Source of the DNA: Sphingobium sp.
Lineage (GTDB): Bacteria > Pseudomonadota > Alphaproteobacteria > Sphingomonadales > Sphingomonadaceae
NCBI GenBank assembly: GCA_023266575.1
Contig: JAHFPV010000006.1
Coordinates: forward strand, 116,909 to 180,908
DNA: 64,000 nt
Direction of reading: 5' to 3'
How positions within the stretch are numbered: position 1 is the first letter of the stretch; each line of letters opens with the position of its first letter. The position numbers and the translations under genes are program-made. The notes under the pieces were generated by a model, which was not told the origin of the DNA, searched no databases, and saw only the letters and a program-made list of their open reading frames with translations. Positions 1-14,783 of this stretch are shown in pieces.

Positions 1-352
1 TGTCGCTGTTACCGCCAGTCGAGCTGGTATCGCTGGCCGACAGACCGCGCATCACGATGTTTCCCGCGCCATAGGGACCGGTATCGGTGATGGTGATGCC
101 CGGCGTGAAGGCCGCGATGTCGCGAATATCGTCGATCCGTTCGTTCGCCAGCTGCTCCGCCCCGATGGCGGCAATATTGATCGGCGTTTCCATCAGCGTG
201 GTGCTGCGGCGGGTGCCGGTGACGACGATGACGTCGCTGTCGGCCTCGGCGGCGGCAGGTGTGTCCTGCGCCAGCGCGGGTGCGGCAAGGGCCGCACTGG
301 TCATCATCGTGGCGGACAGCAGTCCCAGCCTCAGCGTCTTGCGATATGACAT
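1..352 (-). CDS. TonB-dependent receptor, N-terminal part (cut by window edge)
   Basis: Only the first 117 codons lie in the window; the gene runs off the left edge. The reverse-strand ATG at 352 gives a signal peptide (MSYRKTLRLGLLSATMM..., cleavage probably after ALAQ near residue 29). A TonB-box-like segment SDVIVVTGTRR follows near residues 40-49, then the start of a plug domain (ETPINIAAIGAEQL, DIRDIAAFTPGITI, GNIVMRGLSASDTSS). This is the usual order for an outer-membrane siderophore, metal or nutrient receptor. The substrate cannot be read from this part. It diverges from the ureohydrolase pair, and a copy of the shared TACGTC...CATAGC promoter architecture points towards it at 530-487. 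Because it shares that box with the amine dehydrogenase and urea transport genes, I infer that it imports the substrate or a metal for that pathway. Confidence 0.9.
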   Translation of the reverse strand, partial: MSYRKTLRLGLLSATMMTSAALAAPALAQDTPAAAEADSDVIVVTGTRRSTTLMETPINIAAIGAEQLANERIDDIRDIAAFTPGITITDTGPYGAGNIVMRGLSASDTSSTGGNSD

Positions 353-486: not shown

Positions 487-530
487 GCTATGGACTGCGC
501 AGGCAGTCAGACATGGGGCATTTGACGTAG
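487..530 (-). promoter_or_regulatory. Promoter box reading towards the TonB receptor
   Basis: Read on the reverse strand, TACGTCAAATGCCCCATG starts at 529, and CATAGCCTT starts exactly 37 bases after the T of TACGTC. The same spacing and nearly the same two elements occur at 562-604, 3570-3614 and 13468-13510. The first element is probably an activator site; the second may be the -10 region. No experimental support is available here. Confidence 0.55.
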
Positions 531-579
531 CCTGTTCGTCTGCTCCTATGGCGCGCCATCCTACGTCAAATGCCCCATG
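512..579. repeat. 68-bp inverted repeat with nested palindrome between divergent genes
   Basis: CATGGGGCATTTGACGTAG at 512-530 is the perfect reverse complement of 561-579. The 30-base centre contains a perfect 12-bp palindrome, ATGGCGCGCCAT, at 548-559. The two arms are two copies of the activator-like box facing the two divergent transcripts. The structure therefore looks like a shared divergent operator, although it could also fold as a cruciform or RNA hairpin. Confidence 0.8.
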
Positions 580-604
580 GGGAGTGGCGGGCTGGCCGCA
601 TAGC
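561..604 (+). promoter_or_regulatory. Promoter box for the ureohydrolase pair
   Basis: TACGTCAAATGCCCCATG starts at 562 and CATAGC lies at 599-604, 37 bases after the T. The first gene starts about 75 bases further on. The element pair and spacing match those before urtA. Confidence 0.6.
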
Positions 605-675
605 TTGTCGGGATTGGGGCAGCTGTTCCCTTTCCCTGCCCACAGCCTTTGCCTGCGCCGCGCGGGCCGGAGACG

Positions 676-2145
676 ATGATGCCTTCTTTGACCGCCGTTA
701 CAGGATGGAGCATGGCCGGGATCGCGGCGATCGGGGCCGTGCTGGCAGGCGACCTGCCCAACGCGGCCACGCCCGCGCCGCAAATGCCGGCCGAAGATGA
801 TATGGGCAAGCCCAAGCCGCTGGAACTGCCCAAGGATGTCGAGGCGAAGCTGGCCGGCATCGACAAGGCGAAGATCGACTTTCTCAAGAGCGGCGTCACC
901 GGGCGCTATGTTGAGAAGGACGCGCTGTTCGATCGTATCCGCACCAGTAAGCCGGAAGAGATCAGTGCCTATATCGACGCGATGCAGGCGCTGCACGCGC
1001 AGGTCGAATTCAAGGCCGGGCGCGATGTCGCGGCGATCCCGCTCGACACATCATCGCCCTGGTTCAACGCCTGGAAGGCGAAACGCCCCGCGACGATGGA
1101 CCCACGGCGTGAGGCCGGGCCGATGGAGTTGACCCGTTACATTGGTGGCTTTGGCGGGGGCTTTGCAACCTTTGCCGGTGCGCCGCTGGCGATGACGCCG
1201 GAGGATCTGAAAGCGGGCAAGGTCGATGTCGCCATCGTCGGCGCGCCGCTCGATATGGGGTCAGGCTGGCGCAACGCAATCGATGGGCCGCGCGCGATGC
1301 GGATGACCGGCGGGGCTGGCGGCAATGACATGTATTCGATGATCAACCCCAATGCGGCGCTGAAAGTCGTCGATTATGGCGACATCGCCATCGACCAGAA
1401 TTCGACCGAACGCAGCGTCGATCATGTCCGCGCGATGGTGGCGGAAATCGCCCGCACCGGCGCGATCCCGATCGTCATCGGGGGCGACCACAGCCTGGAA
1501 TATCCCAATGTCGCCGCCGCCGCCGATGTCCATGGCAAGGGCAATGTCGGGGTCATCCATTTCGACAGCCATTATGACATTGGCCGGGGCCGCGTGCATC
1601 TGCTCGATCATGGCCAGCCGGTCTATCGCGTCATCAATGAAGGCCATGTCCGGGGCAGCGACTATATCCAGGTAGGCCTGCGCGCGCGGGGTCCCGATCT
1701 CGAAACCTTCGGCTGGATGCGCAACAAGGGCATGAAATATCACACGATGGTCGAGGTCGAAAAATGGGGCTGGGACAAGGTTATGGCCCGTGCGCTGAAA
1801 GAAGCGCGGACCAGCACCAAGAAGCTCTGGATCAGTTTCGACGTCGATGTGCTCGACCCCGCCTTCATGCCGGGCACCGGCACCCCGGTTCCCGGTGGCC
1901 TTACCATGCGGGAGGCGCAGCCGATCATGCGCAACCTGTGCGCGGAAAATGACATTGCCGGCATCGATATCGTCGAAGTCGCGCCCTATCTCGACACCAG
2001 TTACAAGACCGCGCTCAACAGCAATTTCCTGCTGAACGCCTGTCTCGCGGGTATCGCCATGCGCAAGAAAGGGTTGAAGCCCGGCTATCTCAACCCGGTG
2101 TCGGTCGATCATGGGCTGGACGCTTATTATGGGAAGAAGAACTGA
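676..2145 (+). CDS. Agmatinase/arginase-superfamily ureohydrolase with long N-terminal extension
   Basis: 489 residues. The C-terminal two thirds (about 150-489) is a ureohydrolase fold with every metal ligand present, counting from 676: GGDHS (H272), DSHYD (D297, H299, D301) and SFDVDVLDP (D389, D391), followed by GTGTPVPGG. The family hydrolyses guanidino groups to urea plus an amine at a binuclear Mn or Ni centre. The extra 150 N-terminal residues are not found in ordinary agmatinases and start with a hydrophobic stretch (MAGIAAIGAVLAG) that may be an atypical export signal. The start is uncertain: a GGAG at 669-672 fits ATG 679 best, ATG 676 is adjacent, and TTG 649 would add nine residues including an arginine. 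Its stop overlaps the next start (TGATG). Family membership is sure; substrate and location are inferred. Confidence 0.85.
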   Translation: MMPSLTAVTGWSMAGIAAIGAVLAGDLPNAATPAPQMPAEDDMGKPKPLELPKDVEAKLAGIDKAKIDFLKSGVTGRYVEKDALFDRIRTSKPEEISAYIDAMQALHAQVEFKAGRDVAAIPLDTSSPWFNAWKAKRPATMDPRREAGPMELTRYIGGFGGGFATFAGAPLAMTPEDLKAGKVDVAIVGAPLDMGSGWRNAIDGPRAMRMTGGAGGNDMYSMINPNAALKVVDYGDIAIDQNSTERSVDHVRAMVAEIARTGAIPIVIGGDHSLEYPNVAAAADVHGKGNVGVIHFDSHYDIGRGRVHLLDHGQPVYRVINEGHVRGSDYIQVGLRARGPDLETFGWMRNKGMKYHTMVEVEKWGWDKVMARALKEARTSTKKLWISFDVDVLDPAFMPGTGTPVPGGLTMREAQPIMRNLCAENDIAGIDIVEVAPYLDTSYKTALNSNFLLNACLAGIAMRKKGLKPGYLNPVSVDHGLDAYYGKKN

Positions 2146-3530
2146 TGGCGCGCACCGCTTTGCTGGCGCGTGGCGCCGCTCTTGCCCTGGCCCTTGCAGC
2201 CCTGTCCGCGCCCGCCATGGCGCAGGGCAGCGATCCGCTGGCCAGCCTGTCGCCGGAGAAGAAGGCCTTTCTGTCCGACCCGGCAGTGCTGGCCCGCTTC
2301 GGCCTGACGGACGAGAAATTGCAGGTAGCGCTGGCGGGGCGCTCCGCCGCCGATGTCGACGCCTATGCCAGCGCGTTGATGGCGGTGGTGGAGGATAGCA
2401 AATATATGGCCGGTCGCGATCCGTCGGAGATTGCGCTCAACCCGCAGGCGCGCGGCTGGAACGCCAGCACGACGTTGCGCCCCAAGCTGTTCGACAAGCG
2501 AAAGCGCGACGATGGCCCGTTCAGCCTGAAACGCTATCTGTTCCAGCGCGGCGGGGTGCCGACCTTTGCCGACGCGCCGGTCGCGCTGCGCAAGGAAGAT
2601 CTGGTCGCGGGCAGGGTGGAGGTCGCCTTTGTCGGCGTGCCGCTCGATTTCTCGTCGGGCTGGCGCGATTCCAAACATGCACCGATGGCGTTGCGCGGGA
2701 TGGACGGGCTGGTCGGCGCAGATGCCGATGGCGGGGTAGATCCGGGCCTGCTGCTGTCGATCGCCGACTATGGCGATCTGGCGATCGACCCGATGGCGCC
2801 CGAACGCGGGCTGCCCCATGTCCGCATGATGATCGCCGAGATGGCGAGCGTCGGCGTGGTGCCGTTCATCGTCGGGGGCGATCATGCGGTGATGTTTGCC
2901 GATGTCGCGGCGATGGTCGATACCTATGGCGCGGGCAAGGTCGCGCTGGTCCAGTTCGATGCCCATGCCGGGGCGGAGCTGAACGGCGATCATCTGATCT
3001 CCGACACGCAGACTCTGACCCGATTGATGCAGCAAAATTTGTTGCGCGGCAGCGACGTGACGCTGGTCGGCCTGCACGGGCGCGACGCTGATCCGGCGAC
3101 GCAGAAGCGGTTGACCGACAGCGGCGCACGCATCCTGCCCACGGCCGCGATACAGGAACGCGGCTGGCAGGCGGTAACCAAGGAGATATTGGCGGGCCTG
3201 AAGCAGGGACCGGACAATGTCTTTATCTCGTTCGACATGAGCGTCCTTGATCCGGGCGATGCGCCAGCGTCAGGCCGTCCGGTGCCCGGCGGCATCACCA
3301 TGCGGGAGGCGATCCCGATGGTGCGGCAACTCTGCGCGCAGACCAAGGTGGTCGGCTTCGACCTGCTTGATGCAGCGCCGATCCTGGACCCCACCTATGT
3401 CAGCCGGATGAGCGCCAACTATATATTGCACGCCTGCCTGAGCGGCATTGCGCTGCGCAAGAAGGGGGCTGCGACGCCCATTTCGGCCGAGCAAGAAGGG
3501 GCGGTTAAGTCCGCCCGCAAAAAATCTTGA
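2145..3530 (+). CDS. Exported ureohydrolase paralogue lacking two metal ligands
   Basis: 461 residues with a clear Sec signal peptide (MARTALLARGAALALALAALS..., cleavage after AMA at residue 26). It has the same layout as its upstream neighbour, including the N-terminal extension, so the two look like tandem duplicates. Metal-site motifs are partly lost: GGDHA keeps H247, but DAHAG has Gly at 276 where an Asp ligand belongs, and FDMSVLDP has Ser at 366 in place of Asp. Two of six ligands are therefore gone, while the fold and the PVPGG loop remain. It may be a non-catalytic partner, regulator or binding protein for the intact paralogue, or it may use a single metal. Translational coupling (TGATG) suggests equal amounts and perhaps a hetero-oligomer. 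The reading frame is intact, so it is not a pseudogene. Confidence 0.85.
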   Translation: MARTALLARGAALALALAALSAPAMAQGSDPLASLSPEKKAFLSDPAVLARFGLTDEKLQVALAGRSAADVDAYASALMAVVEDSKYMAGRDPSEIALNPQARGWNASTTLRPKLFDKRKRDDGPFSLKRYLFQRGGVPTFADAPVALRKEDLVAGRVEVAFVGVPLDFSSGWRDSKHAPMALRGMDGLVGADADGGVDPGLLLSIADYGDLAIDPMAPERGLPHVRMMIAEMASVGVVPFIVGGDHAVMFADVAAMVDTYGAGKVALVQFDAHAGAELNGDHLISDTQTLTRLMQQNLLRGSDVTLVGLHGRDADPATQKRLTDSGARILPTAAIQERGWQAVTKEILAGLKQGPDNVFISFDMSVLDPGDAPASGRPVPGGITMREAIPMVRQLCAQTKVVGFDLLDAAPILDPTYVSRMSANYILHACLSGIALRKKGAATPISAEQEGAVKSARKKS

Positions 3531-3569
3531 TGCCTGTCCAGTTGCCTATGGCGGATTGTCGCGGGGCCA

Positions 3570-3614
3570 TACGTCATTTGGGCAATGGCGCAGATGGAGC
3601 GCCTGCCTAGGCTT
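3570..3614 (+). promoter_or_regulatory. Promoter box for the qhp operon
   Basis: TACGTCATTTG starts at 3570 and CTAGGCTT starts 37 bases later at 3607, where other copies have CATAGCCTT. The qhpA GTG start lies 40 bases downstream. This suggests that the qhp operon has its own promoter despite following the ureohydrolase pair closely. Confidence 0.5.
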
Positions 3615-3653
3615 GGATTTCGCGCACCGGACGGTGCTTGAGGGGGAAACAGG

Positions 3654-5384
3654 GTGAAGCGGGTAACACTCTCGAAATTCGGGTTGCTGGCGCTGTTTTC
3701 CACCTCGATCCTGTTCGCGCAGGCCGATGGCGGGCCGGACGGCGCGACGATGAAGGAAAGCGATCCGGGCATCCCGGTTGCCGACGCGCTGGTCAAGGAA
3801 AAATGCGGCACCTGCCACACCCCCGATGCCAAGGGGAATTTGTCGCGGATCAGCTGGGTTCGGACCACGCCGGAGGGCTGGTCGCAGGCGATCAAGCGGA
3901 TGGTGCGGCTGAATGGCCTGGCGATCACGCCCGATGAATCGCGGGCTATCGTCAAATCGCTGTCCGCATCGCATGGCCTGGCCCCGCAAGAGGCGCTGCC
4001 GGTCATGTATCTGGCCGAAAAGCGGACGATCGACGAAACCAATATCCCCAACGAAACCATGCGCGGCGCGTGCGCGGCCTGCCACAGTTTTGCCCAGCCT
4101 TTGTCCTGGCGTCGGTCGAAGCTGGAATGGAAGCAGTTGCAGGATCTGCATGTCGCCATGTATTCGCAGGCGGACGCGCAATATCGCCGTCCAGCCGAGG
4201 ATAGCGAACAGCCAGCGGGCCGCGACCCCAAGGACAAGATGCTGCGCGGGGAATATGCGCTGACCTACATGGCCAAGGCCGCGCCGCTGCACACGCCCGA
4301 ATGGGCGGCATGGCGATCACGCCAGAGTGTGCCGCGTCTGGCAGGCGAATGGCTGGTCGTGGCATCCGCGCCGGGGCAGGGGCGGTTCGTAGGCAATTTC
4401 ATCGTCAAGCCGGGCAAATCGGCGGACGAATTTGTGACCAGCAGCACGCTGCGGTCGTTGACCAATGGCGGCACGGTAAGCCGCAGCGGCGCTGGCATCG
4501 TCTATGCCGGCTATAGCTGGCGCGGATCGTCGAGGGGGGCGGTAGCCGCTGGCAAACCCGATGATCTGGCAAGCGCTGCGCGAGAGACGATGTGGTTCGC
4601 TCCCGACCAGCAGAGCGCGATCGGCCGCTGGTATTGGGGCGATTATCAGGAATTCGGGCTGGACGTGAAACTGATCCGCGCGACAGCCGCGCCCGCCGTG
4701 CTGGCCGTTATACCCGGCCCGGTCAAGGCGGGGACAAAGGGCGCGCAATTCCGCATCGTGGGGCATAATCTGCCCGCATCGCTCACTCCCGCAGACATTG
4801 ATCTGGGTGTCGGCGTGACTGCAACCAAGATCGTATCGGCCAGCCCGCAGGAACTGGTGGTGACCGCCGATGTCGCCGCCGGGGCGGCATCTGGACAGCG
4901 CAACGTGGCGATCGGCGGCGCAGTGCTGGAGCAGGCTTTCCCGGTCTATAGCAAGATCGACTATATCAAGGTGACACCCGAAACCGCTGTGTCGCGGCTG
5001 GGCGGGATCAAATTTCCCAAAGGCTATGCGCAGTTCGAGGCGACCGGATTCGAAAATGGCATCGACGGGAAGCAGGGTACGGCGGATGACATTGCGGTCG
5101 GGCCAGTCGATGTCACCTGGTCGACGCAGGAATATCTGGCGGTCTATTATGATGATGACGCCAAATATGTCGGGGCGCTCAGCCCGGCTGCGCTCTTTAC
5201 CCCCAATAGCGAAGGGCCGAACCCGGCCCGCCGCTTTGGCCGCAACAATTATGGTGATGTCTGGGTCGTCGCCACGGCCAAGGCCGAGAAGGACAAGTTC
5301 GGCAAGCCGCTGACCGCCCGTTCCTACATGGTCGTCACCGTACCTGCCTATCAGAAATGGGATCAACCGGAGGTGTCGCAATGA
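3654..5384 (+). CDS. qhpA: Quinohemoprotein amine dehydrogenase alpha subunit (diheme)
   Basis: 576 residues. The alpha subunit carries the two hemes c that take electrons from the CTQ cofactor of the gamma subunit during periplasmic oxidation of primary amines. A signal peptide (MKRVTLSKFGLLALFSTSILFAQA) precedes two CxxCH motifs, CGTCH at 51-55 and CAACH at 140-144, in the N-terminal cytochrome region. The remaining roughly 400 residues are beta-rich, as in known QHNDH alpha subunits. The start is GTG 3654 behind AGGGGG at 3641-3646. The stop overlaps qhpD (ATGA). The identity rests on the diheme pattern, the length and the unmistakable neighbours. Electrons probably leave to a cytochrome c or cupredoxin; none is encoded in this operon. 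Confidence 0.93.
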   Translation: MKRVTLSKFGLLALFSTSILFAQADGGPDGATMKESDPGIPVADALVKEKCGTCHTPDAKGNLSRISWVRTTPEGWSQAIKRMVRLNGLAITPDESRAIVKSLSASHGLAPQEALPVMYLAEKRTIDETNIPNETMRGACAACHSFAQPLSWRRSKLEWKQLQDLHVAMYSQADAQYRRPAEDSEQPAGRDPKDKMLRGEYALTYMAKAAPLHTPEWAAWRSRQSVPRLAGEWLVVASAPGQGRFVGNFIVKPGKSADEFVTSSTLRSLTNGGTVSRSGAGIVYAGYSWRGSSRGAVAAGKPDDLASAARETMWFAPDQQSAIGRWYWGDYQEFGLDVKLIRATAAPAVLAVIPGPVKAGTKGAQFRIVGHNLPASLTPADIDLGVGVTATKIVSASPQELVVTADVAAGAASGQRNVAIGGAVLEQAFPVYSKIDYIKVTPETAVSRLGGIKFPKGYAQFEATGFENGIDGKQGTADDIAVGPVDVTWSTQEYLAVYYDDDAKYVGALSPAALFTPNSEGPNPARRFGRNNYGDVWVVATAKAEKDKFGKPLTARSYMVVTVPAYQKWDQPEVSQ

Positions 5385-6835
5385 CCGTGATGCAGGCACC
5401 CACCTATCGCCGGGCGGAATATCATGGCTTTGACGCCGGGGGCAGCGACTTTGTCTATCTGGTGAGCGCAGGCGCGATCTTCGAGATCGACCCCGATGTG
5501 CGCGCGGTTCTGGACCGGCTCGACGGGCAGGAACTGACCCATGCGGCGCTGGTGCGTGAACTGGTCGCCGATGGACGCGCGGCGGAAGAAGCCGATGGCC
5601 TGGTGCGCGAATTGCGGCAGGCGCGGCTCATCCATCTGGGCCATGCCATGCCGGTGGCGCAGGTGCCGCAAGCACCCCCGGCGGACTTCCCGTTGCAGGC
5701 GCTGGTGCTGAACGTCACCAACCAGTGCAATCTGGCCTGCACTTACTGCTACGAATTTGGCGCGGACAAGATCGCGACGCCGGCGGGCAAGCCCAAATAT
5801 ATGACGCTCGACACGGCGATGGCGTCGGTCGATCTGCTGATCGCCGAGGCGGTCGGCCGTAAGTCGGTGCATATCACCTTCTTCGGCGGCGAAACGCTGA
5901 TGAATTTCAAGCTGCTGCGCGACGTGGTGGCCTATGCCAATCATGCGACCGCGGCGGCGGGCAAGGCGATCACCTACAGCCTGACCACCAACGCCACGCT
6001 GCTGACGCCGGAGATCGTCACCTTCCTGTCGGACAACCGGGTCGGGGTGACCGTGTCCATGGATGGCCCGCCGGAATTGCAGGACAAGCATCGCGTCTAT
6101 AAAAATGGCAAGGGCAGCTATGCGGTGATCGAGCCGCGGCTGCGGACCTTGATCGCCCATCACAAGACGCGGGCCATCACCGCGCGCGTGACGCTGACCG
6201 AAGGCGTGACCGATGTGGTGCGTATCTTCCGCCATCTGAAGGATGATCTGGGCTTCCACGAGGTCGGCTTTGCGCCGGTGACTACGGGCGAAGAACGCGC
6301 CTATTCGCTGGATGGCAATGGCATGGACAGCGTGCTGGCGCAGTTCAACAGCCTAGCGGACGAATGGCTGGAATATGCGCTGCGCGGGGAGTCGCACGGC
6401 TTCACCAATGTCAGCGAAACGATCAGCGAGCTGATTTCGGGCGTAAACAAATCGCATCCCTGCGGCGCTGGCCTTGGGCTGATGGGGGTCAGCCCATCGG
6501 GCGACCTGTCGCCCTGCCATCGCTTCACAGACGCCGACACGCACACGATGGGGCATGTCTCCAGCGGCATCGACCGGGCCAAGCAGGGCGAGTTCCTGGC
6601 CAAGGGGCATGTCGAGGCCAAATATGACTGTCAGAGCTGCTGGGCGCGACCGCTGTGCGCAGGCGGATGCCATCATGAGGCGTTCGTCCGCTATGGCGAC
6701 ACCGGCCACGCCAACCTCCATTATTGCGACTGGATACGCCAGTGGACCGACACCTGCCTGCGTATCTACGGCGTGCTGTCGGTGCGTAATCCCGGTTTCC
6801 TCGAACGCTTCGCCGAAAGAAAGGGGCTGTCATGA
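5381..6835 (+). CDS. qhpD: Radical SAM/SPASM thioether-forming enzyme for the gamma subunit
   Basis: 484 residues. Residues 1-90 resemble a PqqD-like winged-helix peptide recognition domain. The radical SAM cluster motif CNLACTYC is at 116-123. A C-terminal SPASM region has cysteines in CGAGLGLMG..SPC, CQSCW, CAGGC and HYCDW for auxiliary Fe-S clusters. The family joins Cys sulfur to Asp/Glu side-chain carbons in QhpC in the cytoplasm. Start ATG 5381 has GGAGG seven bases upstream and overlaps the qhpA stop as ATGA; an in-frame ATG at 5357 lacks such a site. Its own stop overlaps qhpC in the same way, so enzyme and substrate peptide are translationally coupled. Confidence 0.95.
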   Translation: MTVMQAPTYRRAEYHGFDAGGSDFVYLVSAGAIFEIDPDVRAVLDRLDGQELTHAALVRELVADGRAAEEADGLVRELRQARLIHLGHAMPVAQVPQAPPADFPLQALVLNVTNQCNLACTYCYEFGADKIATPAGKPKYMTLDTAMASVDLLIAEAVGRKSVHITFFGGETLMNFKLLRDVVAYANHATAAAGKAITYSLTTNATLLTPEIVTFLSDNRVGVTVSMDGPPELQDKHRVYKNGKGSYAVIEPRLRTLIAHHKTRAITARVTLTEGVTDVVRIFRHLKDDLGFHEVGFAPVTTGEERAYSLDGNGMDSVLAQFNSLADEWLEYALRGESHGFTNVSETISELISGVNKSHPCGAGLGLMGVSPSGDLSPCHRFTDADTHTMGHVSSGIDRAKQGEFLAKGHVEAKYDCQSCWARPLCAGGCHHEAFVRYGDTGHANLHYCDWIRQWTDTCLRIYGVLSVRNPGFLERFAERKGLS

Positions 6836-7191
6836 AGCATCTTCGTGCCATCAATAAAAAGGCGCAGCGGATCGACGAAGCCGTGACGCAGATGGAAGCG
6901 GCAGCATCGCCGAATGCGGACATGGAGGAGGATGTGGTCGCCCTCCAGCAGGTCCCGCGCCCGCATGTGCCGATGGGCTGTTCGCTCTCTTTCTCCCCCG
7001 GCTGGGAAGTCGATGCGAGCGGCGGCACGGCGGGGCTGTGCCAGCCGGTCGAGCGCGACATTTACGACTGCTATGTCACCTGTTTCTGGCCGGTGCAGGT
7101 GCCCGATCATGTCAACTATTCGCCCGACTGGGCCAGCAACTGCGCCACCGCGACCAAGGACTGGCGCAGTCTCGATCTTATTTTCCCATGA
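6832..7191 (+). CDS. qhpC: Quinohemoprotein amine dehydrogenase gamma subunit (CTQ carrier)
   Basis: 119-residue precursor of the catalytic subunit. Aligning by spacing to the Paracoccus gamma subunit (Cys7-Glu16, Cys27-Asp33, Cys41-Asp49, CTQ Cys37-Trp43), every partner is present with identical spacing: C50-E59, C70-D76 and C84-D92 for the three thioether cross-links, and C80-W86 for cysteine tryptophylquinone. Conserved GWEVD, LCQPVE and FWPVQVPD surround them. The peptide before the mature region is about 40 residues, longer than the 28-residue leader known from Paracoccus, and rich in charged residues (KKAQRIDEAV, NADMEED). It is not a Sec signal, which fits export by QhpF and trimming by QhpE. 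C104 is an extra cysteine with no assigned partner. It overlaps the qhpD stop (ATGA), and its stop lies inside the qhpB start region. Confidence 0.96.
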   Translation: MKHLRAINKKAQRIDEAVTQMEAAASPNADMEEDVVALQQVPRPHVPMGCSLSFSPGWEVDASGGTAGLCQPVERDIYDCYVTCFWPVQVPDHVNYSPDWASNCATATKDWRSLDLIFP

Positions 7192-7199
7192 GGGCCGCC

Positions 7200-8288
7200 A
7201 TGCCGAAATATCGTCTGATGCTGGGCGCTGGCCTGGCGATGCTGAGCGCCATGCCCTTGAATGCGGCGACGTTGTTCATGGGCTCCTATCCAGACCGCCT
7301 GCTGGTGTTCGAGGAAAGCAAGGGCGCGGTCACCGGCACGATCAAGCTGGACACCGGCCTGCCGACATCGATGCAATTGTCCGATGATGGCAAGCGCATC
7401 TATGTGACGACCATCACCACCAGCGGGATCGAGGTGATCGACACCGCGACGCGCAAGGTGATCAACAAGTTCAGCCTGAATGACGGCACGACCCGCTACC
7501 GTTTCTGGGGCGGCGTGCCCGATCCGACCGGGCGCTATTTCTACACCGTCATCTCGAAATTCGAGAAGGGGATCGACCGCTATACCGTCAGCAAGCCCAT
7601 GTATGGCGTCATCGACCTGAAGCTGCAAAAGGTCGTCCGCACTGCCGAGATCGACAAGGAGGATGAGCGTTCTGGCGGCTGGCGCGCGGGCTATAAAGTG
7701 TCGCCCGACGGAAAGACGCTCTACGCCTTTGGCGAAAAGGTCGCGATTATCGATGTTGCGACATTGAAGGTCACCGACCGGATAGACCTCGCCAAGCCTG
7801 AAGGCACCGGCATGGAGAATGTCGGCTTTGGCGGCACGTTGGATGCGATCCGCACGCCGGGCCAATATGTGTCGCTGTTCAATGCCGCTGACGCCTATGT
7901 CCATAACAAGATGTTCGGCATGGCGCGTTTCGACCTGTCCACCCGGCAGTTTGATTTTACCCCCATCGGCCCCGCGCCCGACGCTATGGCCGGGTTGCAG
8001 GTCACGCCCGACGGCAAGCAGGCCTATACCGTCGTTACCAACGGCAAATATGGCAATAAGCGCTGCGAATTCTGGCATATGGACATGGCCAGCAACGCCG
8101 TGGTCGACAAGGCGGAATTTCCCTGCCGATCGCGTTTCCGTCTGGGCATGTCGACCGATGGGGCGAAGCTCTACATCTATGGCGCGAGCTATGATCTGGA
8201 AGTCTATGACGCCAAGACATTGAAGCATGAGGTGACGCTGGACCTGGGCTATGACACCACTGGCGCAGGCATGGTCGCGGTGGAATGA
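7200..8288 (+). CDS. qhpB: Quinohemoprotein amine dehydrogenase beta subunit (beta propeller)
   Basis: 362 residues. A signal peptide (MPKYRLMLGAGLAMLSAMPLNAA) precedes a protein built of repeated blades: QLSDDGKRIYVTT, GGVPDPTGRYFYTV, KVSPDGKTLYAFG, QVTPDGKQAYTVV and GMSTDGAKLYIYG. This is the seven-bladed propeller that packs against QhpC and QhpA in the periplasm. Start ATG 7200 has AGGG at 7191-7194; ATG 7188, overlapping the qhpC stop, is an alternative that adds four residues. The stop overlaps qhpG (ATGA). Confidence 0.94.
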   Translation: MPKYRLMLGAGLAMLSAMPLNAATLFMGSYPDRLLVFEESKGAVTGTIKLDTGLPTSMQLSDDGKRIYVTTITTSGIEVIDTATRKVINKFSLNDGTTRYRFWGGVPDPTGRYFYTVISKFEKGIDRYTVSKPMYGVIDLKLQKVVRTAEIDKEDERSGGWRAGYKVSPDGKTLYAFGEKVAIIDVATLKVTDRIDLAKPEGTGMENVGFGGTLDAIRTPGQYVSLFNAADAYVHNKMFGMARFDLSTRQFDFTPIGPAPDAMAGLQVTPDGKQAYTVVTNGKYGNKRCEFWHMDMASNAVVDKAEFPCRSRFRLGMSTDGAKLYIYGASYDLEVYDAKTLKHEVTLDLGYDTTGAGMVAVE

Positions 8289-9292
8289 CCGAACCGCGCA
8301 TGATCGTCGGCATAAGGGGCAGCGGGATTGCCGCGACGACATGCGCACATCTGCTGAACGGAGCGGGCCTTCGGGTCGCAAGCGAAGCCGCCCATCGCGC
8401 GCCAGTGCCGACGATCATGCTCAGCGATCCGGCCCTGGCGCTACTGCGCGACATATTCGGGCGGCCCGACCTGTTTGCCGACAGTCCCCGGATCAAGCGC
8501 CGTGTGGTCGCCTGGGGTGGCGCGCCGGTGGTGGTGCCGCATGGCGCGGCGCTGGCGTCGGAAGATCAGGTACAGGCGGCTTTGGCGGGGGAACAGCCTG
8601 TCGCAGGGGATCAGCCGGTTGATTTCATGATCAACGCCGCGCCGCCTCTGCCGCTGGGCGAAATGCGGATTTTTGGCGATCGCAATGCCGTGGCGACGGA
8701 GGTGCGGCTGCGCGACCCGGCGTGCAACGAAGAAGGCCGGGTCGAGGCGGTGCCGAACGGCTGGTTGTTTCTGGTGCCAGCCGGTCCGGGGGAAGGCTGG
8801 TTGCTGGCAGTGGGGGGATCGCTCGACGATCTGCTGGCGGAAAGCTCACTGATCGCGCCGGTCATTGATGCCGTGGGGGCGGTGTCGATGCCGTTCCTCG
8901 CCGCGCCGCGTCTGCATCTGCCCCTGTGCGGTGACGACTGGCTGGCCTGCGGCACGGCGGCGCTGGGCTTCGATCCGATCTGCGGCGATGGCACGGCGCA
9001 GTCGGTGCGGGAGGCGATACTGGCGTCCGCCGTTTTGATCGGCATAGCGGAGGGCGGTGATGCGGCGGCGCTGCTGACCCATTATCAGTCCATGCTGATC
9101 GCGGCGATGCGGCGGCATCTGCTGCTCTGCGCGCAATTTTACGCCAGCGGCGGGATCGGCGAGTGGTGGCGGGCGCAGCATGACGCGCTGATGGACGGGC
9201 ATCGTTGGTGTACCTGCCTGCTGGCCAAGATGCCGGAGCCTGCCTTTGTCTTGGACGGTGTGCGGCTGCGGCCCCGGCGACAGGCGGCGTGA
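8285..9292 (+). CDS. qhpG: FAD-dependent monooxygenase for CTQ tryptophan hydroxylation
   Basis: 335 residues. An N-terminal nucleotide-binding stretch (IVGIRGSGIAATTCAHLL) fits the GxGxxx dinucleotide fold of single-component flavin monooxygenases, and a later GDGTAQSVREAI matches the GD motif that contacts FAD ribityl. In QHNDH systems this protein adds the two oxygens to the gamma-subunit tryptophan that becomes the quinone, before export. It is placed between qhpB and qhpF here, whereas in Paracoccus it follows qhpE. There is no signal peptide, so it is cytoplasmic. Start ATGA overlaps qhpB; the stop overlaps qhpF (GTGA). The assignment depends on family plus context. Confidence 0.88.
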   Translation: MTEPRMIVGIRGSGIAATTCAHLLNGAGLRVASEAAHRAPVPTIMLSDPALALLRDIFGRPDLFADSPRIKRRVVAWGGAPVVVPHGAALASEDQVQAALAGEQPVAGDQPVDFMINAAPPLPLGEMRIFGDRNAVATEVRLRDPACNEEGRVEAVPNGWLFLVPAGPGEGWLLAVGGSLDDLLAESSLIAPVIDAVGAVSMPFLAAPRLHLPLCGDDWLACGTAALGFDPICGDGTAQSVREAILASAVLIGIAEGGDAAALLTHYQSMLIAAMRRHLLLCAQFYASGGIGEWWRAQHDALMDGHRWCTCLLAKMPEPAFVLDGVRLRPRRQAA

Positions 9293-10992
9293 ATGGTGTA
9301 ACGCCTGCGCCAGTCGCCGACTGGAGCGCCTACAAGCGGCTGACGCCCTTCCTGCGCCCTTATCGCGGCGCGCTCATCATGGTGCTGGCGATCAGCCTGA
9401 TCTCTACCGCGCTGGGGCTGGCCCAACCCTATCTGTCGAAGCTGATGATCGACGAGGCACTCTTGCGCCGGGATATGGGCGCGCTTGTGCGGATCGCGGC
9501 GATCATGATCGGCGTGACCATCGCCGGGTTCGCGGTCAATATCCTGGCGAGCTATCGCTATGTTTCGCTATCGGCAGCGATGCTCTACGATATTCGCGCG
9601 GCCTTGCTACGCCATCTCCAGACGCTCTCGCCGCGTTTCTATGGCAGCTTCCGCCTGGGCGATCTCGTTTCGCGGATGAACAGCGATGTGAGTGACGTGC
9701 AACGGATTGCGTCTGATACTTTGCTGTCCGTGGTCAGCAACCTGCTATTCTTCGTTGGCTGTGTAGCAATGATGCTGTGGCTCGACTGGCGGTTGTTTCT
9801 GGTCAGCGTGGTGCTGGTCCCGGCAAGCCTTGCGACCTTTGCCTATTATCAGCGGCGGCTGACTGCGCTGACCCGCGACATGCGGGAAAAGGGCGCGGAT
9901 CTGGGCAGCCTGCTGGTCGATACGGTGATGGGGATGCGTGTCGTTGCCTCGCTGCGGGCGGGCGAGCATGAGGTCGGGCGCTTCCGGCAGAAGAATGACG
10001 CTTTTGTAGGCGCGATGCTGCGGATGCAGGTCGCCTCCTATATGACCGGGGCGCTGCCCGGCACGCTGATGACGGCGGCGACGTCCGCGGTGATCCTCTA
10101 TGGCGGCTGGCGCATCATTGAGGACGGCATGAGCATCGGCACGCTGGTCGCGTTCATGACCTATCATATGCGGCTGCTCTCGCCGATTCAGACGCTGATG
10201 GGGCTGACGTCGGGGCTGGCGTCGGCGCGGGTATCGTTGGGCCGGATATTTGAGCTGTTCGATACCAAGGCGGAAGTGATCGAACGCGCCGATGCCGTGC
10301 CGCTGGAACGGGCGGGGGTGATGCGGTTCGATCGGGTGGCGATGCGCTATGATCGCGATGCCGTGCTGCGCGACATGGACCTGACGATCCCGGCGGGCAG
10401 CCTATGTGCGATTTTGGGGCCGAGCGGCGTCGGCAAATCGACCATGGCCGACCTGATGGTCCGCTATCTCGATCCCGATAGCGGGCAGGTCCTGGTCAAT
10501 GGCCGGGACCTGCGCAACTACCGCCTTGACGATGTGCGGCGGGAGATCATCCTGGTCGACCAGTCGCCCTATTTGTTCAACGATACAATCGCGGCGAATA
10601 TCGGCTTTGCCCTGCCCGATGTACGGCAGGCCCAGATCGAGGCAGCAGCCCATGCGGCGGGGCTGGACGAGTTTCTCGCGCGCTTGCCCTTGGGCTATGA
10701 GACCCGAGCCGGGGAGCGAGGCATGGCGCTGTCAGCGGGGGAGCGACAGCGCATCGTCCTGGCGCGGGCGCTGCTGCGCTCGCCCAGCATATTGATATTG
10801 GACGAGCCGACGTCGGCGCTCGACGGAGAGACAGAGCAACTGGTCGCCGGGCGGCTGCGTGGCGCGCTGCCCGACGCGACCATCATCATCATCACCCACA
10901 AGCCCGCCATGGCGCAGATGGCCGACATGATCGTGACGCTGGCCGACGGACGCGCGCAGGTAGAGCGGCGGGGCGAGCCGGTTCATGCCTGA
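9289..10992 (+). CDS. qhpF: ABC exporter (fused TM and ATPase) for the modified gamma subunit
   Basis: 567 residues. The N-terminal half holds about six membrane segments of an ABC type-1 exporter (GALIMVLAISLISTALGLA and onwards). The C-terminal half is the ATPase with Walker A GPSGVGKST, signature LSAGERQR and Walker B ILILDEPTSALD. In the QHNDH family it carries the cross-linked QhpC to the periplasm, since QhpC has no Sec signal. The start is GTG 9289, overlapping the qhpG stop as GTGA; the open frame extends 28 codons upstream into qhpG but without a better start. It overlaps qhpE by eight bases. Confidence 0.9.
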   Translation: MNGVTPAPVADWSAYKRLTPFLRPYRGALIMVLAISLISTALGLAQPYLSKLMIDEALLRRDMGALVRIAAIMIGVTIAGFAVNILASYRYVSLSAAMLYDIRAALLRHLQTLSPRFYGSFRLGDLVSRMNSDVSDVQRIASDTLLSVVSNLLFFVGCVAMMLWLDWRLFLVSVVLVPASLATFAYYQRRLTALTRDMREKGADLGSLLVDTVMGMRVVASLRAGEHEVGRFRQKNDAFVGAMLRMQVASYMTGALPGTLMTAATSAVILYGGWRIIEDGMSIGTLVAFMTYHMRLLSPIQTLMGLTSGLASARVSLGRIFELFDTKAEVIERADAVPLERAGVMRFDRVAMRYDRDAVLRDMDLTIPAGSLCAILGPSGVGKSTMADLMVRYLDPDSGQVLVNGRDLRNYRLDDVRREIILVDQSPYLFNDTIAANIGFALPDVRQAQIEAAAHAAGLDEFLARLPLGYETRAGERGMALSAGERQRIVLARALLRSPSILILDEPTSALDGETEQLVAGRLRGALPDATIIIITHKPAMAQMADMIVTLADGRAQVERRGEPVHA

Positions 10993-11659
10993 TCCACTGC
11001 GCATCGCCATCATCGACAGCGGGGTACATCCCGACCATCCGCATATCGACGCCGCGCGTCTGCTGCCGGGCTGTGCCGTGGCGCGCGATGGCTGCGTAAG
11101 CAAAGGCGATACGCTGGACAGTTTGGGCCATGGCACGGCGGTGACTGCCGCGATCATGGAGCAGGCACCCGATACGCTGTGCCTGCCGATCCGGGTCTTT
11201 CACGAAGCCCTGCGTGCCAGCGCGCGGGCCTTGGTCAGCGCGATCGAGCGGGCGGTTGAGGCGCGGGTCGATATGATCAACCTCAGCCTTGGCACCGTCA
11301 ATCCGGCGCATAGCGAAGCCTTTGCGGCGGCAGTGGCACGGGCCGAGGCGGCGGGGGTGCTGATCGTCGCGGCGCGCGATGTGGACGGGCAGCTTTGCTT
11401 TCCGGGCAGTCTGGATGGCGTAGTGGGCGTCAGCCTCGACTGGGACTGTCCCCGTGAAACCTATGTTGAGCGGGGCGGAATCATCCATGCCTCTGGCCAC
11501 CCCCGCCCAATCCCCGGTGTCGAACAGCGGCGCAATCTTTACGGGGTGAGCTTCGCGGTCGCCAATGTCAGCGGGATCATCGCGCGGGCGCGTCAGGCGA
11601 TGCCGAACCCCGCGACCCGCTCGACCATCCAGAAACAACCAATCGCGCCGACCGCATAG
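10985..11659 (+). CDS. qhpE: Subtilisin-like protease that trims the gamma-subunit leader
   Basis: 224 residues, a minimal subtilase. The catalytic triad is visible: D11 in IIDSGV, H49 in LGHGTAV and S189 in GVSFAVANVSG. There is no signal peptide or propeptide, fitting the cytoplasmic leader peptidase of the qhp system. The segment that carries the oxyanion Asn in subtilisin (AAGNEG) reads AARDVDG here, so the Asn is replaced, probably by Asp132; this may reduce turnover. Its last 67 bases overlap, tail to tail, the 3' end of the HupE-like gene on the other strand, an unusually long convergent coding overlap. Confidence 0.9.
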   Translation: MPDPLRIAIIDSGVHPDHPHIDAARLLPGCAVARDGCVSKGDTLDSLGHGTAVTAAIMEQAPDTLCLPIRVFHEALRASARALVSAIERAVEARVDMINLSLGTVNPAHSEAFAAAVARAEAAGVLIVAARDVDGQLCFPGSLDGVVGVSLDWDCPRETYVERGGIIHASGHPRPIPGVEQRRNLYGVSFAVANVSGIIARARQAMPNPATRSTIQKQPIAPTA

Positions 11660-12591
11660 AGCGCGGCGACCCGCACCGGCGTGGCCAGCGAGATAGCGCG
11701 CAGGCCCGCCAGTGCCGCGATGATCGCACCGACGAACAGCAATTGCCCGGTTTCGACGCCGATGTTGAAGAAGATCAGCGCGGGCAATTTCTCGCCCGCC
11801 TGCACGCCCAGTTCGCCGAGCGCGGTGGCAAAGCCAAGGCCATGGAGCAGGCCGAACAGCGAGACGACAGTCAGTTGTCGGCGGAACGCGAACCCCTGTT
11901 CTCCCTTCCCGACCAGCAGCGCCTCGCGGGCCATGAAGGCGATCGACAGGGCGATAGCGGCCTCGACCGGGGGGACGGGGACGCGCACCAGTTCAAAAAA
12001 GGCGACAGCGAGTGAGACAGAGTGACCGGCAGTGAAGGCACTGACAAGCCACAATAATTCCCGGCCCCGCGCAAGCAGGGCAAGGCACAGCACGAAGGCG
12101 AGATGGTCCCAGCCCAGCCAGATATGCCAGACCCCCTGCGCCAGGAATTCGGGCGCGATCCGGGTCAGGGGTCGCTGGGCCGCTGCGGTTTCACCAACGG
12201 GTATTGCAATACCGTTCGTATCCCCGGTCAAGCTGCGATCGACCTGGCTGCCCATGACATTGGTGACGAAGCGACCGCCATCGGCGCGCCAGGGTGTCTG
12301 GATCATGTCACCGGCAACAAAGGGACGTTCGCAGACAAATTCAAAGGCATATTGCGCCCGCCCGCCGCTGGACTGGCGTGTCATGCCGGTCTGGCTGCAC
12401 CCGTCTGGCCAGACGACCGGCGCGGGCTGGCCGACCGTTTCCGGCACGGCGGCGGTGAACTCATATGTATTGGCGTCCTCACCCTGCGTCAGGGCGAAAT
12501 CGGCGGACAGGAAGATGTCGGCCATCGCCGTCGCCGGCAGCAGCGCGGCGAACGACAGCAGGAGCGCGGCCAGACTATTCTTCCACATCAT
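11593..12591 (-). CDS. HupE/UreJ-family permease with N-terminal periplasmic domain
   Basis: 332 residues. A signal-like start (MMWKNSLAALLLSFAALLPATAMA) is followed by about 120 soluble residues, then the membrane domain. That domain has histidine-rich motifs typical of HupE/UreJ nickel/cobalt permeases: QGVWHIWLGWDHLAFVLCL, FTAGHSVSLA and LFGLLHGLGFA. Start ATG 12591 (or 12588) follows AGGAG. It overlaps the upstream PPIase-like gene by 17 bases, so the two form an operon that diverges from urtA. No urease or hydrogenase is in the window. Metal supply to the ureohydrolases is a reasonable guess, since some members of that superfamily use nickel. Family is sure, cargo is not. Confidence 0.82.
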   Translation of the reverse strand: MMWKNSLAALLLSFAALLPATAMADIFLSADFALTQGEDANTYEFTAAVPETVGQPAPVVWPDGCSQTGMTRQSSGGRAQYAFEFVCERPFVAGDMIQTPWRADGGRFVTNVMGSQVDRSLTGDTNGIAIPVGETAAAQRPLTRIAPEFLAQGVWHIWLGWDHLAFVLCLALLARGRELLWLVSAFTAGHSVSLAVAFFELVRVPVPPVEAAIALSIAFMAREALLVGKGEQGFAFRRQLTVVSLFGLLHGLGFATALGELGVQAGEKLPALIFFNIGVETGQLLFVGAIIAALAGLRAISLATPVRVAALYAVGAIGCFWMVERVAGFGIA

Positions 12592-13432
12592 ATTTCTCCT
12601 TGAGGCCTGACAGCGCCTTGTCGATGGCGGCATTGCTGTGGGCGATCATATAATCCTGCCGCACCTGATCGCGGATGGCGGGGAAGGGGATCATGGCGCT
12701 GGCGATGCTCTCGCTCTTGCGCACGAAATGCCAGCCGCGGGGAGATCGGACCGGGCCGAACCAGCGGCCTTCCGGTGCGGCTTTCAGCGTGGCGACGAAG
12801 GGCTGGCCGAAAATGCCGCGCACCATCGAATCGCCATAGCGTGGGAAGCTGCGCCCCAGCCAGAAATCGTCGCCGGCTATGGTTTCACCGGCGTTGAGCT
12901 GCGTCAGTAACAATGCGGCGTCGGCGGGCTTCTGCGCCAAGTAGATCTGGGTGAAGCTGGTGCGCGGTTCTGCGCGATATTGCGCCAGATTGTCGGCATA
13001 ATGATTGACCAGTTGCTCCTCGCTTGGTTCGGGCGGTGCACCCGCGATCAGGTAGCGGACCTTGTCCACCAGCCGCTTGCGGGTTTCCCCGTCGGTCAAA
13101 TGCATGTTGCGGTCGATCGCCTCGCGAAACAGCAGCTCCTCTGCCAGATAATCGCGCTTGATCCGCGCCTTGTCTGCTGCAGTGGCGGGGCGACCGACCA
13201 GCGTTTCATATTCCCCGACCATCGCCTGTTCGACTTGCGGGGTGAAAACGACCGGCGGCTTTTGCGCCTGTTCGATAGCGTAATAGCCGCCGAACAGCGC
13301 CACCCCGGCAGCCATGAAAGCCACCAGCGGATCGCGGATGGCCTTGCGCGCCATGGCAAGGATATGGGGTGGCGAGACTGAAGATTTCGCCACCATCGCG
13401 TCCGTCGCCATCTGTCCCGCCCCGTCTGCCAT
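12575..13432 (-). CDS. Membrane-anchored parvulin-like peptidyl-prolyl isomerase
   Basis: 285 residues. There is one N-terminal membrane segment (LVAFMAAGVALFGGYYAI) and a long helical chaperone-like region with LAEELLFREAIDRNM. A parvulin-like C-terminal part follows (TSFTQIYLAQ, GETIAGDDFWLGRSFPRYGDS, GRWFGPVRSPRGWHFVRKSE), as in PpiC/SurA proteins. It probably acts in the periplasm as a folding factor and is coupled to the HupE-like gene by a 17-base overlap. The start may instead be ATG 13411, which has GGGGCGGG upstream; if the reverse promoter element at 13446-13441 is real, 13432 would be almost leaderless. Confidence 0.75.
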   Translation of the reverse strand: MADGAGQMATDAMVAKSSVSPPHILAMARKAIRDPLVAFMAAGVALFGGYYAIEQAQKPPVVFTPQVEQAMVGEYETLVGRPATAADKARIKRDYLAEELLFREAIDRNMHLTDGETRKRLVDKVRYLIAGAPPEPSEEQLVNHYADNLAQYRAEPRTSFTQIYLAQKPADAALLLTQLNAGETIAGDDFWLGRSFPRYGDSMVRGIFGQPFVATLKAAPEGRWFGPVRSPRGWHFVRKSESIASAMIPFPAIRDQVRQDYMIAHSNAAIDKALSGLKEKYDVEE

Positions 13433-13440
13433 GGCGCAAT

Positions 13441-13510
13441 ATTAGGGTGAGCCTGCGCACGGGTGCCTACGTCAAATGACGCATACGGGGGATAGGCGGC
13501 TTTCCATAGC
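13441..13510. promoter_or_regulatory. Bidirectional promoter box between the PPIase/HupE pair and urtA
   Basis: TACGTCAAATGACGCA at 13468-13483 is an almost perfect palindrome and looks like the full dimer site behind the half-conserved copies elsewhere. Forward, CATAGCCTT begins 37 bases after the T, at 13505. In reverse, CCTAAT sits at 13446-13441, the same distance from the other arm. The site could therefore drive both urtA and the PPIase/HupE pair. Confidence 0.6.
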
Positions 13511-13571: not shown

Positions 13572-14783
13572 ATGATCCGATCCAGGCTGCTCATGCTTGC
13601 CACCTCTGCCTGCGCGCTGGCGCTGGCTTCCTGTTCCGGCGGGGACAAGGCGAGCGCGCCTGCGGGCGACAGCGTGGCGGTGGGCGTGCTGCAATCGCTG
13701 ACCGGCACGATGGCGATCAGCGAGATCACGGTGAAAAACGCCGAGATGCTGGCGATTGAGGAGATCAACGCCACCGGCGGCGTGCTGGGCAAGCAGATCA
13801 ACGCGCTGGTCGAGGATGGCGCGTCCGATCCCTCCACCTTCGCGCAAAAAGCGTCCAAGCTGATCGAGAGCGACAAGGTCGCCACCGTGTTCGGCGGCTG
13901 GACGTCGGCCAGCCGCAAGGCGATGCTGCCGGTGTTCGAGCGGACGAAGAACCTGCTCTGGTATCCGGTGCAGTTTGAGGGCAATGAATGTTCGCCCAAT
14001 ATCATGTATTCGGGCGCGCAGCCCAACCAGCAGGCTCTGCCCGCGCTCGAATGGGCGGTGAAACAGGGCTATAAGAGCTTCTTCCTGGTCGGGTCCGACT
14101 ATGTCTATCCCCGCACCGCCAACCTGATCCTGAAAAAGCATATCGAAAAGGGCGGGATGCAGGTGCTGGGCGAAGCCTATGTGCCGCTGGGCGGCACCGA
14201 TTTTTCGGGCGTCATCGCCAAGATTGCGCAGGCCAAACCCGCGATCATCATCAACACGCTGAATGGCGACAGCAATGTCGCTTTCTTCAAGCAGATGCAG
14301 GCCGCCGGGATCAGCCCCAAGACGATGCCGGTCATGTCCTTTTCCATCGGCGAACAGGAAGCGCAGGCGATGGGCGCCGGTCTGGTCGAGGGCAGCTATG
14401 CCGCCTGGAATTATTTTCAGAGCCTGACCGGCGACGCCAATGCCAAATTCATCGCCGCCTACAAGGCCAAGTTTGGCAAGGATGCGGCGATCACCGACCC
14501 GATGGTCCATGGCTATCTGGATGTCTATGCGTGGAAGGCGGCGGTGGAGAAGGCCAAGAGCTTTGACCCCGACGCGGTGCGCAAGGCGGCGGCTGCGCTG
14601 GGCGGTTTCGCGACGCCAATGGGGACGGTCAGCTTTGCGGCCAACCAAAGCCTGGTGCAGAAAGCCTATATCGGCAAGCTGAAGGCCGACGGCCAGTTCG
14701 AGATCATCGCCGACAGCGGCAATGACATCGTGCCCGAACCCTATGACGCGCTGGCCTTCCCCGGCAAGACTTGCAAGCTTTGA
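13572..14783 (+). CDS. urtA: Urea/amide ABC transporter substrate-binding lipoprotein
   Basis: 403 residues. A lipoprotein signal ends in LALASC (lipidated C21). The mature protein is a type-1 periplasmic binding protein of the UrtA/FmdD/AmiC group (VAVGVLQSLTGTMAISE, MLAIEEINATGGVLGK, SDKVATVFGGWTSASRKA, WYPVQFEGNE). UrtA binds urea; relatives bind short amides. The start is ATG 13572 behind GGGGGAG; the open frame extends to 13476, but that ATG lies inside the promoter box. It is followed by a REP-like element and then urtB-E. Context next to ureohydrolases supports urea or a urea derivative as ligand. Confidence 0.88.
   Translation: MIRSRLLMLATSACALALASCSGGDKASAPAGDSVAVGVLQSLTGTMAISEITVKNAEMLAIEEINATGGVLGKQINALVEDGASDPSTFAQKASKLIESDKVATVFGGWTSASRKAMLPVFERTKNLLWYPVQFEGNECSPNIMYSGAQPNQQALPALEWAVKQGYKSFFLVGSDYVYPRTANLILKKHIEKGGMQVLGEAYVPLGGTDFSGVIAKIAQAKPAIIINTLNGDSNVAFFKQMQAAGISPKTMPVMSFSIGEQEAQAMGAGLVEGSYAAWNYFQSLTGDANAKFIAAYKAKFGKDAAITDPMVHGYLDVYAWKAAVEKAKSFDPDAVRKAAAALGGFATPMGTVSFAANQSLVQKAYIGKLKADGQFEIIADSGNDIVPEPYDALAFPGKTCKL

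Follow-up and report, generated by a model that had tools for sequence, protein, structure and literature searches.

Do the promoters of a urea- and amine-related gene cluster in Sphingobium sp. belong to one response, and which factor could connect them? The window, i.e. the whole stretch of DNA analysed here (64,000 nucleotides, G000:C11:116909-180908, where G000 is the 3.62 Mb host genome and C11 coordinates follow the contig numbering; bare numbers count from the first base of the window), carries genes for a TonB-dependent receptor, arginase-family ureohydrolases, a quinohemoprotein amine dehydrogenase (qhp) and the urea transporter UrtABCDE. An initial annotation had linked these promoters, together with that of a peptidyl-prolyl isomerase (PPIase)/HupE pair, through a TACGTC box followed at a fixed distance by a CATAGC-like hexamer, and all of its sites and hexamers lie where it placed them. 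The box is scarce, keeps a regular distance to a -10-like element, is conserved in close relatives and co-occurs with one response regulator gene. We consider it likely that this regulator, encoded at C11:97048-97965, binds the box and, together with a sensor kinase of predicted NCS1 transporter fold, activates the urea/amine cluster from a class II position. The binder, its ligand, the activation and the substrate are what we infer from sequence comparison.

Distribution, geometry and conservation of the box

The window contains five copies of TACGTCAWWTG, against 0.03 expected from dinucleotide shuffles. The longer pattern TACGTCAWWTG-N26-CATAGC, with up to two mismatches permitted, is found three times, each time with 0 mismatches (0.00 expected), so the view that chance is an unlikely explanation is borne out. 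The boxes listed by the annotation are real, but a fifth 11-mer of the window, at 30778(-), had been overlooked. We rejected this copy as a target, because it lies inside the 3' end of tetR, has a poor second arm and lacks a -10; it is probably a chance occurrence or a half-site.

The entire genome has eight copies of TACGTCAWWTG (none for the reversed control), seven of which fall within ~41 kb at C11:106.6-147.7 kb; the eighth, at C8:48275-, was set aside as a target. The box is also longer than first described, i.e. it is a 7-2-7 inverted repeat of ~17 bp, TACGTCAAAYGMCSCAT. The 17-mer TACGTCAWNYGMSSCAT has six perfect genomic matches, and all are within C11:106620-130392. When two mismatches are allowed the scan returns mostly noise (55 matches versus 14 for the reversed control), therefore we relied on perfect matches. 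In other words, both forms of the box are concentrated in the cluster and not scattered at random over the genome. Three perfect 17-mers are located upstream of the window, before ureA (C11:106636-), the ureohydrolase gene UHc (108302-) and a second PPIase/HupE pair (111402-). The promoters originally listed hold as targets, but the set is larger: it includes urease, UHc, the second PPIase/HupE pair and, with a weaker box, the ureohydrolase gene UHd.

The distance between the box and the -10-like element was investigated in 31 sphingomonad promoters, with sites 15-330 bp from a blast-labelled gene and identical promoters merged. One row (a far xdhS match) was dropped and the qhpA site was added by hand; palindromic sites may count once per direction, and the genomes are related, not independent. 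NTAG is found at offset 36-39 in 19 of the 31 promoters, while the mean best value of the shuffles is 3.6 and none of 2000 reaches 19. It starts at +37 in seven promoters, at +38 in eight and at +39 in four, and is absent there in 12. Given this spread, the spacing is 37 +/- 1, and the exact 37-base rule of the annotation stands for the hexamers of the TonB receptor, UHa and urtA but not as a general rule. In G000, NTAG is at 38 (hexamer at 37) for TonB, UHa, UHc and urtA and at 37 (hexamer at 36) for qhpA; no NTAG was found at offset 36-39 for ureA or for either PPIase direction. At qhpA the literal CTAGGC does begin at +37, but when the promoters are aligned on TAG its -10 becomes CCTAGG at +36. 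If transcription starts 6-7 bases past the hexamer, the box would span ~-49 to -33 with its centre at ~-41.5, i.e. a class II position.

In four close relatives (G397-G400, the genomes behind L163-L166) the 11-mer TACGTCAWWYG occurs 9, 6, 7 and 6 times, with 5, 1, 3 and 2 matches of the reversed control. Of these 28 copies 26 belong to cluster genes; the 3 kb loci of the remaining two (L260, L264) contain no such gene. The cluster is split between contigs in G398 and G400, with the urease side on one and the TonB-ureohydrolase-qhp-urt side on another; the box is present on both, therefore it marks both halves of the cluster. Alignments of 4-5 genomes show invariant blocks of ~20 bases over the TonB, qhpA, urtA and ureA boxes, and the flanks vary. 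Wherever the region upstream of qhpA is available, i.e. in three of the relatives, it retains the qhpA box; in G399 qhpA is cut by the contig end.

As to RNA elements, an Rfam scan of the window and of C11:85001-117000 revealed no riboswitch. A match to the Rfam family 5_ureB_sRNA (104 bits) is located at L103 4513-4801 (+), antisense to the urease alpha gene, and conserved coding sequence may be its sole cause.

The candidate regulator and its kinase

The annotation had noted no activator gene in the window, which agrees with our observations. A strong candidate is found ~19 kb upstream of the window, at C11:97048-97965(-). It encodes 305 residues with the REC and GerE domains (Pfam Response_reg 1.7e-27, GerE 3.1e-16) of a NarL/FixJ (LuxR-type) regulator, separated by ~120 residues. 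Beside it lies the gene of a hybrid histidine kinase with HisKA, HATPase and REC domains (C11:97962-101321, minus strand), and this pairing with a LuxR-type regulator is retained in relatives. Both genes follow the urease genes on the same strand, therefore the pair may be part of the urease operon and autoregulated.

The N-terminus of the kinase comprises 640 residues with many hydrophobic helices. It matches a cytosine permease model weakly (E 1.4e-5, 24 bits against a cut-off of 326), the membrane part has no Pfam match to NCS1 or SSF at E 0.001, and sequence searches of the PDB gave nothing meaningful (best E 0.79 with the single sequence and 2.3 with a profile). The corresponding part of the L163 homologue, which is 93% identical, was modelled with AlphaFold2 from a 24-sequence alignment (pLDDT 77.4, pTM 0.79). 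A fold search with this model ranks CodB (E 1.4e-9) and Mhp1 (E 4.6e-9) first, the CodB match having a TM-score of 0.78 by target length and 0.51 by query length; SLC5-type structures (DUR3, NIS, SiaT) rank lower, at E 3e-6 and worse. The NCS1 and SLC5 families have a common LeuT-like architecture. According to the model, the N-terminal part of the kinase has an NCS1 (CodB/Mhp1-like) transporter fold. The membrane part is followed by a cysteine-rich segment with a conserved C498-C535; no Pfam match was found between the membrane part and HisKA, in a library for which the presence of the STAC model is unconfirmed.

Co-occurrence of box and regulator was surveyed in 397 genomes of the family, using a threshold of E <= 1e-50 for the regulator, which is present in 47 of them. 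The perfect 17-mer has 53 matches in 33 genomes: 34 in 16 of the 47 regulator-positive genomes, and 19 in 17 of the 350 regulator-negative ones (Fisher 3.3e-8, or 1.4e-7 without G000). It is conspicuous that 29 of the 34 matches in regulator-positive genomes are at most 35 kb from the regulator gene, on the same contig; three of the remaining five are from the assemblies G206 and G315, on contigs other than that of the regulator gene, and two seem to be due to chance. A 'strict' class of the 17-mer has all of its matches (32/32) in regulator-positive genomes, but it was defined after the sites had been seen and is hence not a test. A previous survey with the 11-mer covered 40 genomes, 19 of them regulator-positive. 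Of these 19, ten had a match at most ~30 kb from the regulator and 16 had one anywhere in the genome, as did 11 of the 21 negative genomes, the latter value representing the background level of the short pattern.

The surroundings of 20 regulator loci were compared as well. Nine have a full-length kinase, and in eight of these (G000, G057, G094, G099, G030, G133, G011 and G031) urease and urt genes are nearby, at some loci together with ureohydrolases, a TonB receptor, PPIase/HupE or mau genes. The urtA box of the eight loci is the exact palindromic TACGTCAAATGACGCAT in six, a variant in G099 and a CCCCAT form in G133; boxes also occur before ureA, UHc, TonB and mauB in various of those genomes. 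A different arrangement is seen in G045, where a kinase that matches the C-terminal part only lies next to an ABC ATPase and a binding protein of the NMT1-like type (L077 606-4989), as if the sensor had been swapped for a transporter.

With the kinase N-terminus at least 574 loci were found, of which we analysed 80 from Alpha-, Beta- and Gammaproteobacteria. A urtA homologue is present in 63 of the 80, and in 56 it is divergent and within 1.5 kb of the kinase gene. The intergenic region of these 56 loci was scored for the palindrome TACGTCA-WW-TGACGTA, a predicted site with the 7-2-7 layout of the NarL/FixJ regulators: 16 loci reach at least 14 of 16 positions (16 in L205, L219 and L221, 15 in ten, 14 in three), seven score 13 and 33 score 11-12, a score of 11 being often attained by shuffles. 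The low-score group is mainly Bradyrhizobium-type, with the recognition helix TVDKHL in place of TVNKHL. A palindrome score of at least 14 is found in 16 of 24 loci with the N-type helix (TVNKHL or TANKHL) and in none of 30 with the D-type (TVDKHL; Fisher 3.5e-8); L200 and L220 (TVNKHM, scores 12 and 11) are outside both classes. We note that this covariation of box and helix is suggestive and phylogenetically confounded. It was rejected as proof of binding, because most D-type loci are from Bradyrhizobium and, at another place in the region, 29 of the 30 also have a half-site of the TACGTC or TACGTT type. The genes that follow urt were checked at two loci, L191 and L222: both operons run on into genes for FmdA formamidase and an aliphatic amidase-type hydrolase, the order of which varies. 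In L200, L240 and L230 the box is directly followed, on the urtA side, by another inverted element resembling TTGTTGCRTCGCACAA, as seen by eye.

Proposed mechanism and competing explanations

The annotation had proposed that the promoters form one response, probably through one dimeric activator. A dimer-type box that links the genes is supported by the scarcity and clustering of the box in the genome, by the conserved blocks, by its retention on both halves of the contig-split cluster and by its co-occurrence with one response regulator. Urea or a small amide is the most likely signal of the kinase, which would detect it with its NCS1-fold part. The phosphorylated regulator dimer would then bind the 7-2-7 repeat TACGTCA-WW-TGMCSCA centred near -41.5 and could substitute for a missing -35 element, as expected of class II activation. 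Urease, UrtABCDE, the exported arginase-family hydrolases, the TonB receptor and HupE/PPIase would be induced as one cluster, and in this lineage the qhp amine dehydrogenase too.

A number of observations weigh against this mechanism. No perfect 17-mer is found in 31 of the 47 regulator-positive genomes, the best palindrome does not exceed 13 in 40 of the 56 divergent loci, and the Bradyrhizobium-type regions have TACGCAAGATYGCGTA and a TACGTCG element instead. G117 has a full-length kinase, but neither ure nor urt genes are seen on its contig of 32.6 kb, and at 11 of the 20 regulator loci (G013, G036, G045 and others) the kinases match the C-terminal part only and no urease is seen nearby; several of these loci are near a TonB receptor and a TPR-sulfotransferase. 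As regards the promoters, 12 of 31 lack NTAG at the expected place, the ureA box has no recognisable -10 in the 4-5-genome alignments, and the CATAGC of the UHa promoter is retained in only two of five aligned genomes. Finally, qhpA occurs in seven of the 397 genomes, G000 included. The boxes at TonB/ureohydrolase, qhpA and urtA are conserved in close relatives, but none of the six further sphingomonad loci with qhpA, including one from the same genus, has a box in its 1.5 kb flanks; therefore qhpA was probably recruited to the regulon within this lineage. Some of these other qhpA promoters (L244, L245, L249) have an apparent TTGTGCG / CGCACAA-type element near GGTCAAGC, seen by eye, which suggests that the box-free promoters are under a different regulator.

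Could the box be the site of another factor, such as a global nitrogen regulator encoded elsewhere, with the two-component pair as a mere neighbour? Several urtA promoters have a TTGTTGCRTCGCACAA-like second element beside the box, by eye, therefore more than one regulator may act at urtA. A global regulator, however, would have sites throughout the genome, whereas all six perfect 17-mers are in one cluster; moreover, the box follows the regulator over the 397 genomes, and at some of the distant loci it adjoins the gene of the kinase. We regard this explanation as unlikely. It is likewise improbable, in our judgement, that the regulator is a repressor, i.e. that its dimer occupies the -35 region until urea or a guanidino compound releases it. 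The preference for activation over repression comes from the position of the box, and ~-49 to -33 would fit a repressor too. On the other hand, no clear -35 element is visible by eye (no -35 scan was made), and CrbR, which among characterised regulators is the closest analogue, activates through an inverted repeat located at -52 to -36 according to the available portion of PMC5715377. That the repeats arose by chance or by recent duplication of promoter segments, without common regulation, is already contradicted and hardly tenable: the copies at 529(-) and 562(+) are near neighbours that agree in all 17 bases, but five copies stand against 0.03 expected, the box (plus the -10 at urtA and qhpA) is conserved amid varying flanks, and it persists where the cluster is divided between contigs.

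Gene content, predicted pathway and related systems

Table 1. Coordinates of boxes, -10-like elements and genes in the window.
Feature	Position	Strand	Remarks
TonB-dependent receptor gene, 5' end	1..351	-	Start codon at 351 is our choice; gene reaches ~C11:114885
-10-like CATAGC, TonB receptor promoter	487..492	-	+37 from box
TonB box TACGTCAAATGCCCCAT, 17 bp	513..529	-	Upstream of TonB receptor gene; conserved in four relatives
Ureohydrolase-pair box TACGTCAAATGCCCCAT, 17 bp	562..578	+	One variable base among five genomes
-10-like CATAGC, ureohydrolase promoter	599..604	+	+37 from box
UHa, arginase-family hydrolase	649..2145	+	Complete metal ligands; probable signal peptide
UHb, arginase-family protein with signal peptide	2145..3530	+	2/6 metal ligands lost; pseudo-enzyme partner
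qhpA box TACGTCATTTGGGCAAT	3570..3586	+	2 mismatches to 17-mer; invariant in 3 close relatives
-10-like CCTAGG of qhpA	3606..3611	+	In register at +36
qhp genes	3654..11659	+	Quinohemoprotein amine dehydrogenase alpha, radical SAM protein, gamma and propeller protein first; remainder: protein without Pfam match, ABC exporter, S8 protease
HupE/UreJ-like membrane protein and PPIase pair	11593..13432	-	
-10-like CCTAAT, PPIase/HupE direction	13441..13446	-	
Near-palindromic box TACGTCAAATGACGCAT	13468..13484	+	Common to urtA (+) and PPIase (-)
-10-like CATAGC of urtA	13505..13510	+	+37; block TTCCATAGCCTT invariant in five genomes
urtABCDE, urea ABC transporter	13572..18278	+	NCBIfam models
Weak box TACGTTCTTTGCCCCAT upstream of UHd	19415..19431	+	2 mismatches; related sequence conserved in L164, L166
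UHd, agmatinase-like ureohydrolase	19466..20509	+	No evident signal peptide; amino-acid permease gene next
Doubtful box TACGTCATTTG	30762..30778	-	tetR 3' end, ~200 bp before mau-type amine dehydrogenase operon

The features of the window are listed in Table 1. UrtA, UrtB, UrtC and UrtE exceed the curated NCBIfam cut-offs and UrtD is marginally under (303.8 vs 304.1 bits). The qhp genes other than alpha and gamma were named after the presumed operon order, and the propeller protein is taken by us to be the beta subunit. A mau-type amine dehydrogenase operon (27133-30576) is located in the same region as qhp; a mauB box with 0-1 mismatch is present in G030, G094 and G099, and the window has the doubtful copy only. 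The cluster contains two PPIase/HupE pairs (L010 7480-9286 and window 11593-13432), each preceded by a palindromic box. Two TPR-sulfotransferase genes adjoin TonB receptors (window 21921-24011, L010 9283-10848), and in several further genomes this pairing is again seen close to the regulator.

UHa, UHc and UHd belong to the arginase family (PF00491) and have the GGDHS, DxHxD and DxD motifs. In UHb, DAHAG and DMSVLDP replace DxHxD and DxDxxDP, i.e. the set of six ligands is incomplete. Signal peptides were judged by eye as clear in UHb and UHc and probable in UHa, so that an active UHa directly precedes a degenerate UHb (649-3530) and both are apparently exported. The solved proteins nearest to UHa are guanidinobutyrase and 'probable agmatinase 2' (7esr), which we equate with the guanidinase of Synechocystis. 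Alongside qhp, Urt, urease and HupE, a molybdo-oxidoreductase whose N-terminus looks Tat-like was counted among the pathway proteins. In the simplest reading the exported ureohydrolases would split guanidino compounds into urea and an amine in the periplasm, the amine dehydrogenases would oxidise the released amine, and the urea would be imported by Urt and hydrolysed by urease; substrate, location and order of these steps are all predicted.

On a broader scale, we tentatively suggest that the loci may represent a proteobacterial family of urea/amide-sensing systems with an NCS1 sensor, whose Sphingobium-type regulon has been extended to a periplasmic guanidino pathway made up of ureohydrolase, quinoprotein amine dehydrogenase, molybdo-aldehyde oxidoreductase and re-import through Urt and urease. 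If this is true, a widespread two-component system would gain a box, a regulon and a testable class of ligands, NCS1 would become the second transporter fold among transporter-fused sensor kinases, and the predicted guanidino route would yield urea outside the cytoplasm. Our search of the open literature, which included few subscription papers, returned no description of the sensor system or of the pathway; a similar urt/fmd neighbourhood in Ectopseudomonas is noted, without function, in the accessible part of PMC13296017.

The enzymes can be compared with guanidinobutyrase, 'probable agmatinase 2' and metformin hydrolase, i.e. the solved proteins matched by UHa and UHb. The combination of an active and a degenerate protein resembles the A and B subunits of metformin hydrolase, while the signal peptides of UHa and UHb, as judged by eye, indicate a periplasmic location.

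Among sensor systems, the accessible portions of PMC5715377 and PMC9100948 describe CrbS/CrbR (MxtR/ErdR) and RpuS/RpuR as pairs of an SLC5/STAC kinase and a LuxR-type regulator. At acs, CrbR depends on an imperfect inverted repeat of 17 bases (-52 to -36) that immediately precedes the RNA polymerase site (PMC5715377). As far as these portions go, our system is similar in its transporter-like hybrid kinase, the adjacent LuxR-type regulator and the promoters with 17-base inverted repeats. It differs from CrbS/CrbR in its membrane part, which is of predicted NCS1 fold and not clearly SLC5 and is followed by the cysteine-rich segment, in the motif (TACGTCA-WW-TGACGTA versus the ACTU motif) and in its urea, amide and amine gene neighbours. 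Since the membrane part does not qualify as SLC5, we set the system apart from the SLC5/STAC kinases and do not count it as a member. With NarL, whose site TACCCCTAAAGGGGTA consists of 16-bp inverted heptamers with a 2-bp spacer and TAC...GTA ends (PMC4549865, available portion), it shares the REC and GerE domains, the 7-2-7 layout and the TAC...GTA ends, but the heptamer is TACGTCA and ~120 residues lie between REC and GerE. The divergent urtA within 1.5 kb in 56 of 80 kinase loci recalls the urt/fmd operons for uptake of short-chain amides and urea; unlike these, the sphingomonad loci neighbour urease, exported ureohydrolases and amine dehydrogenases.

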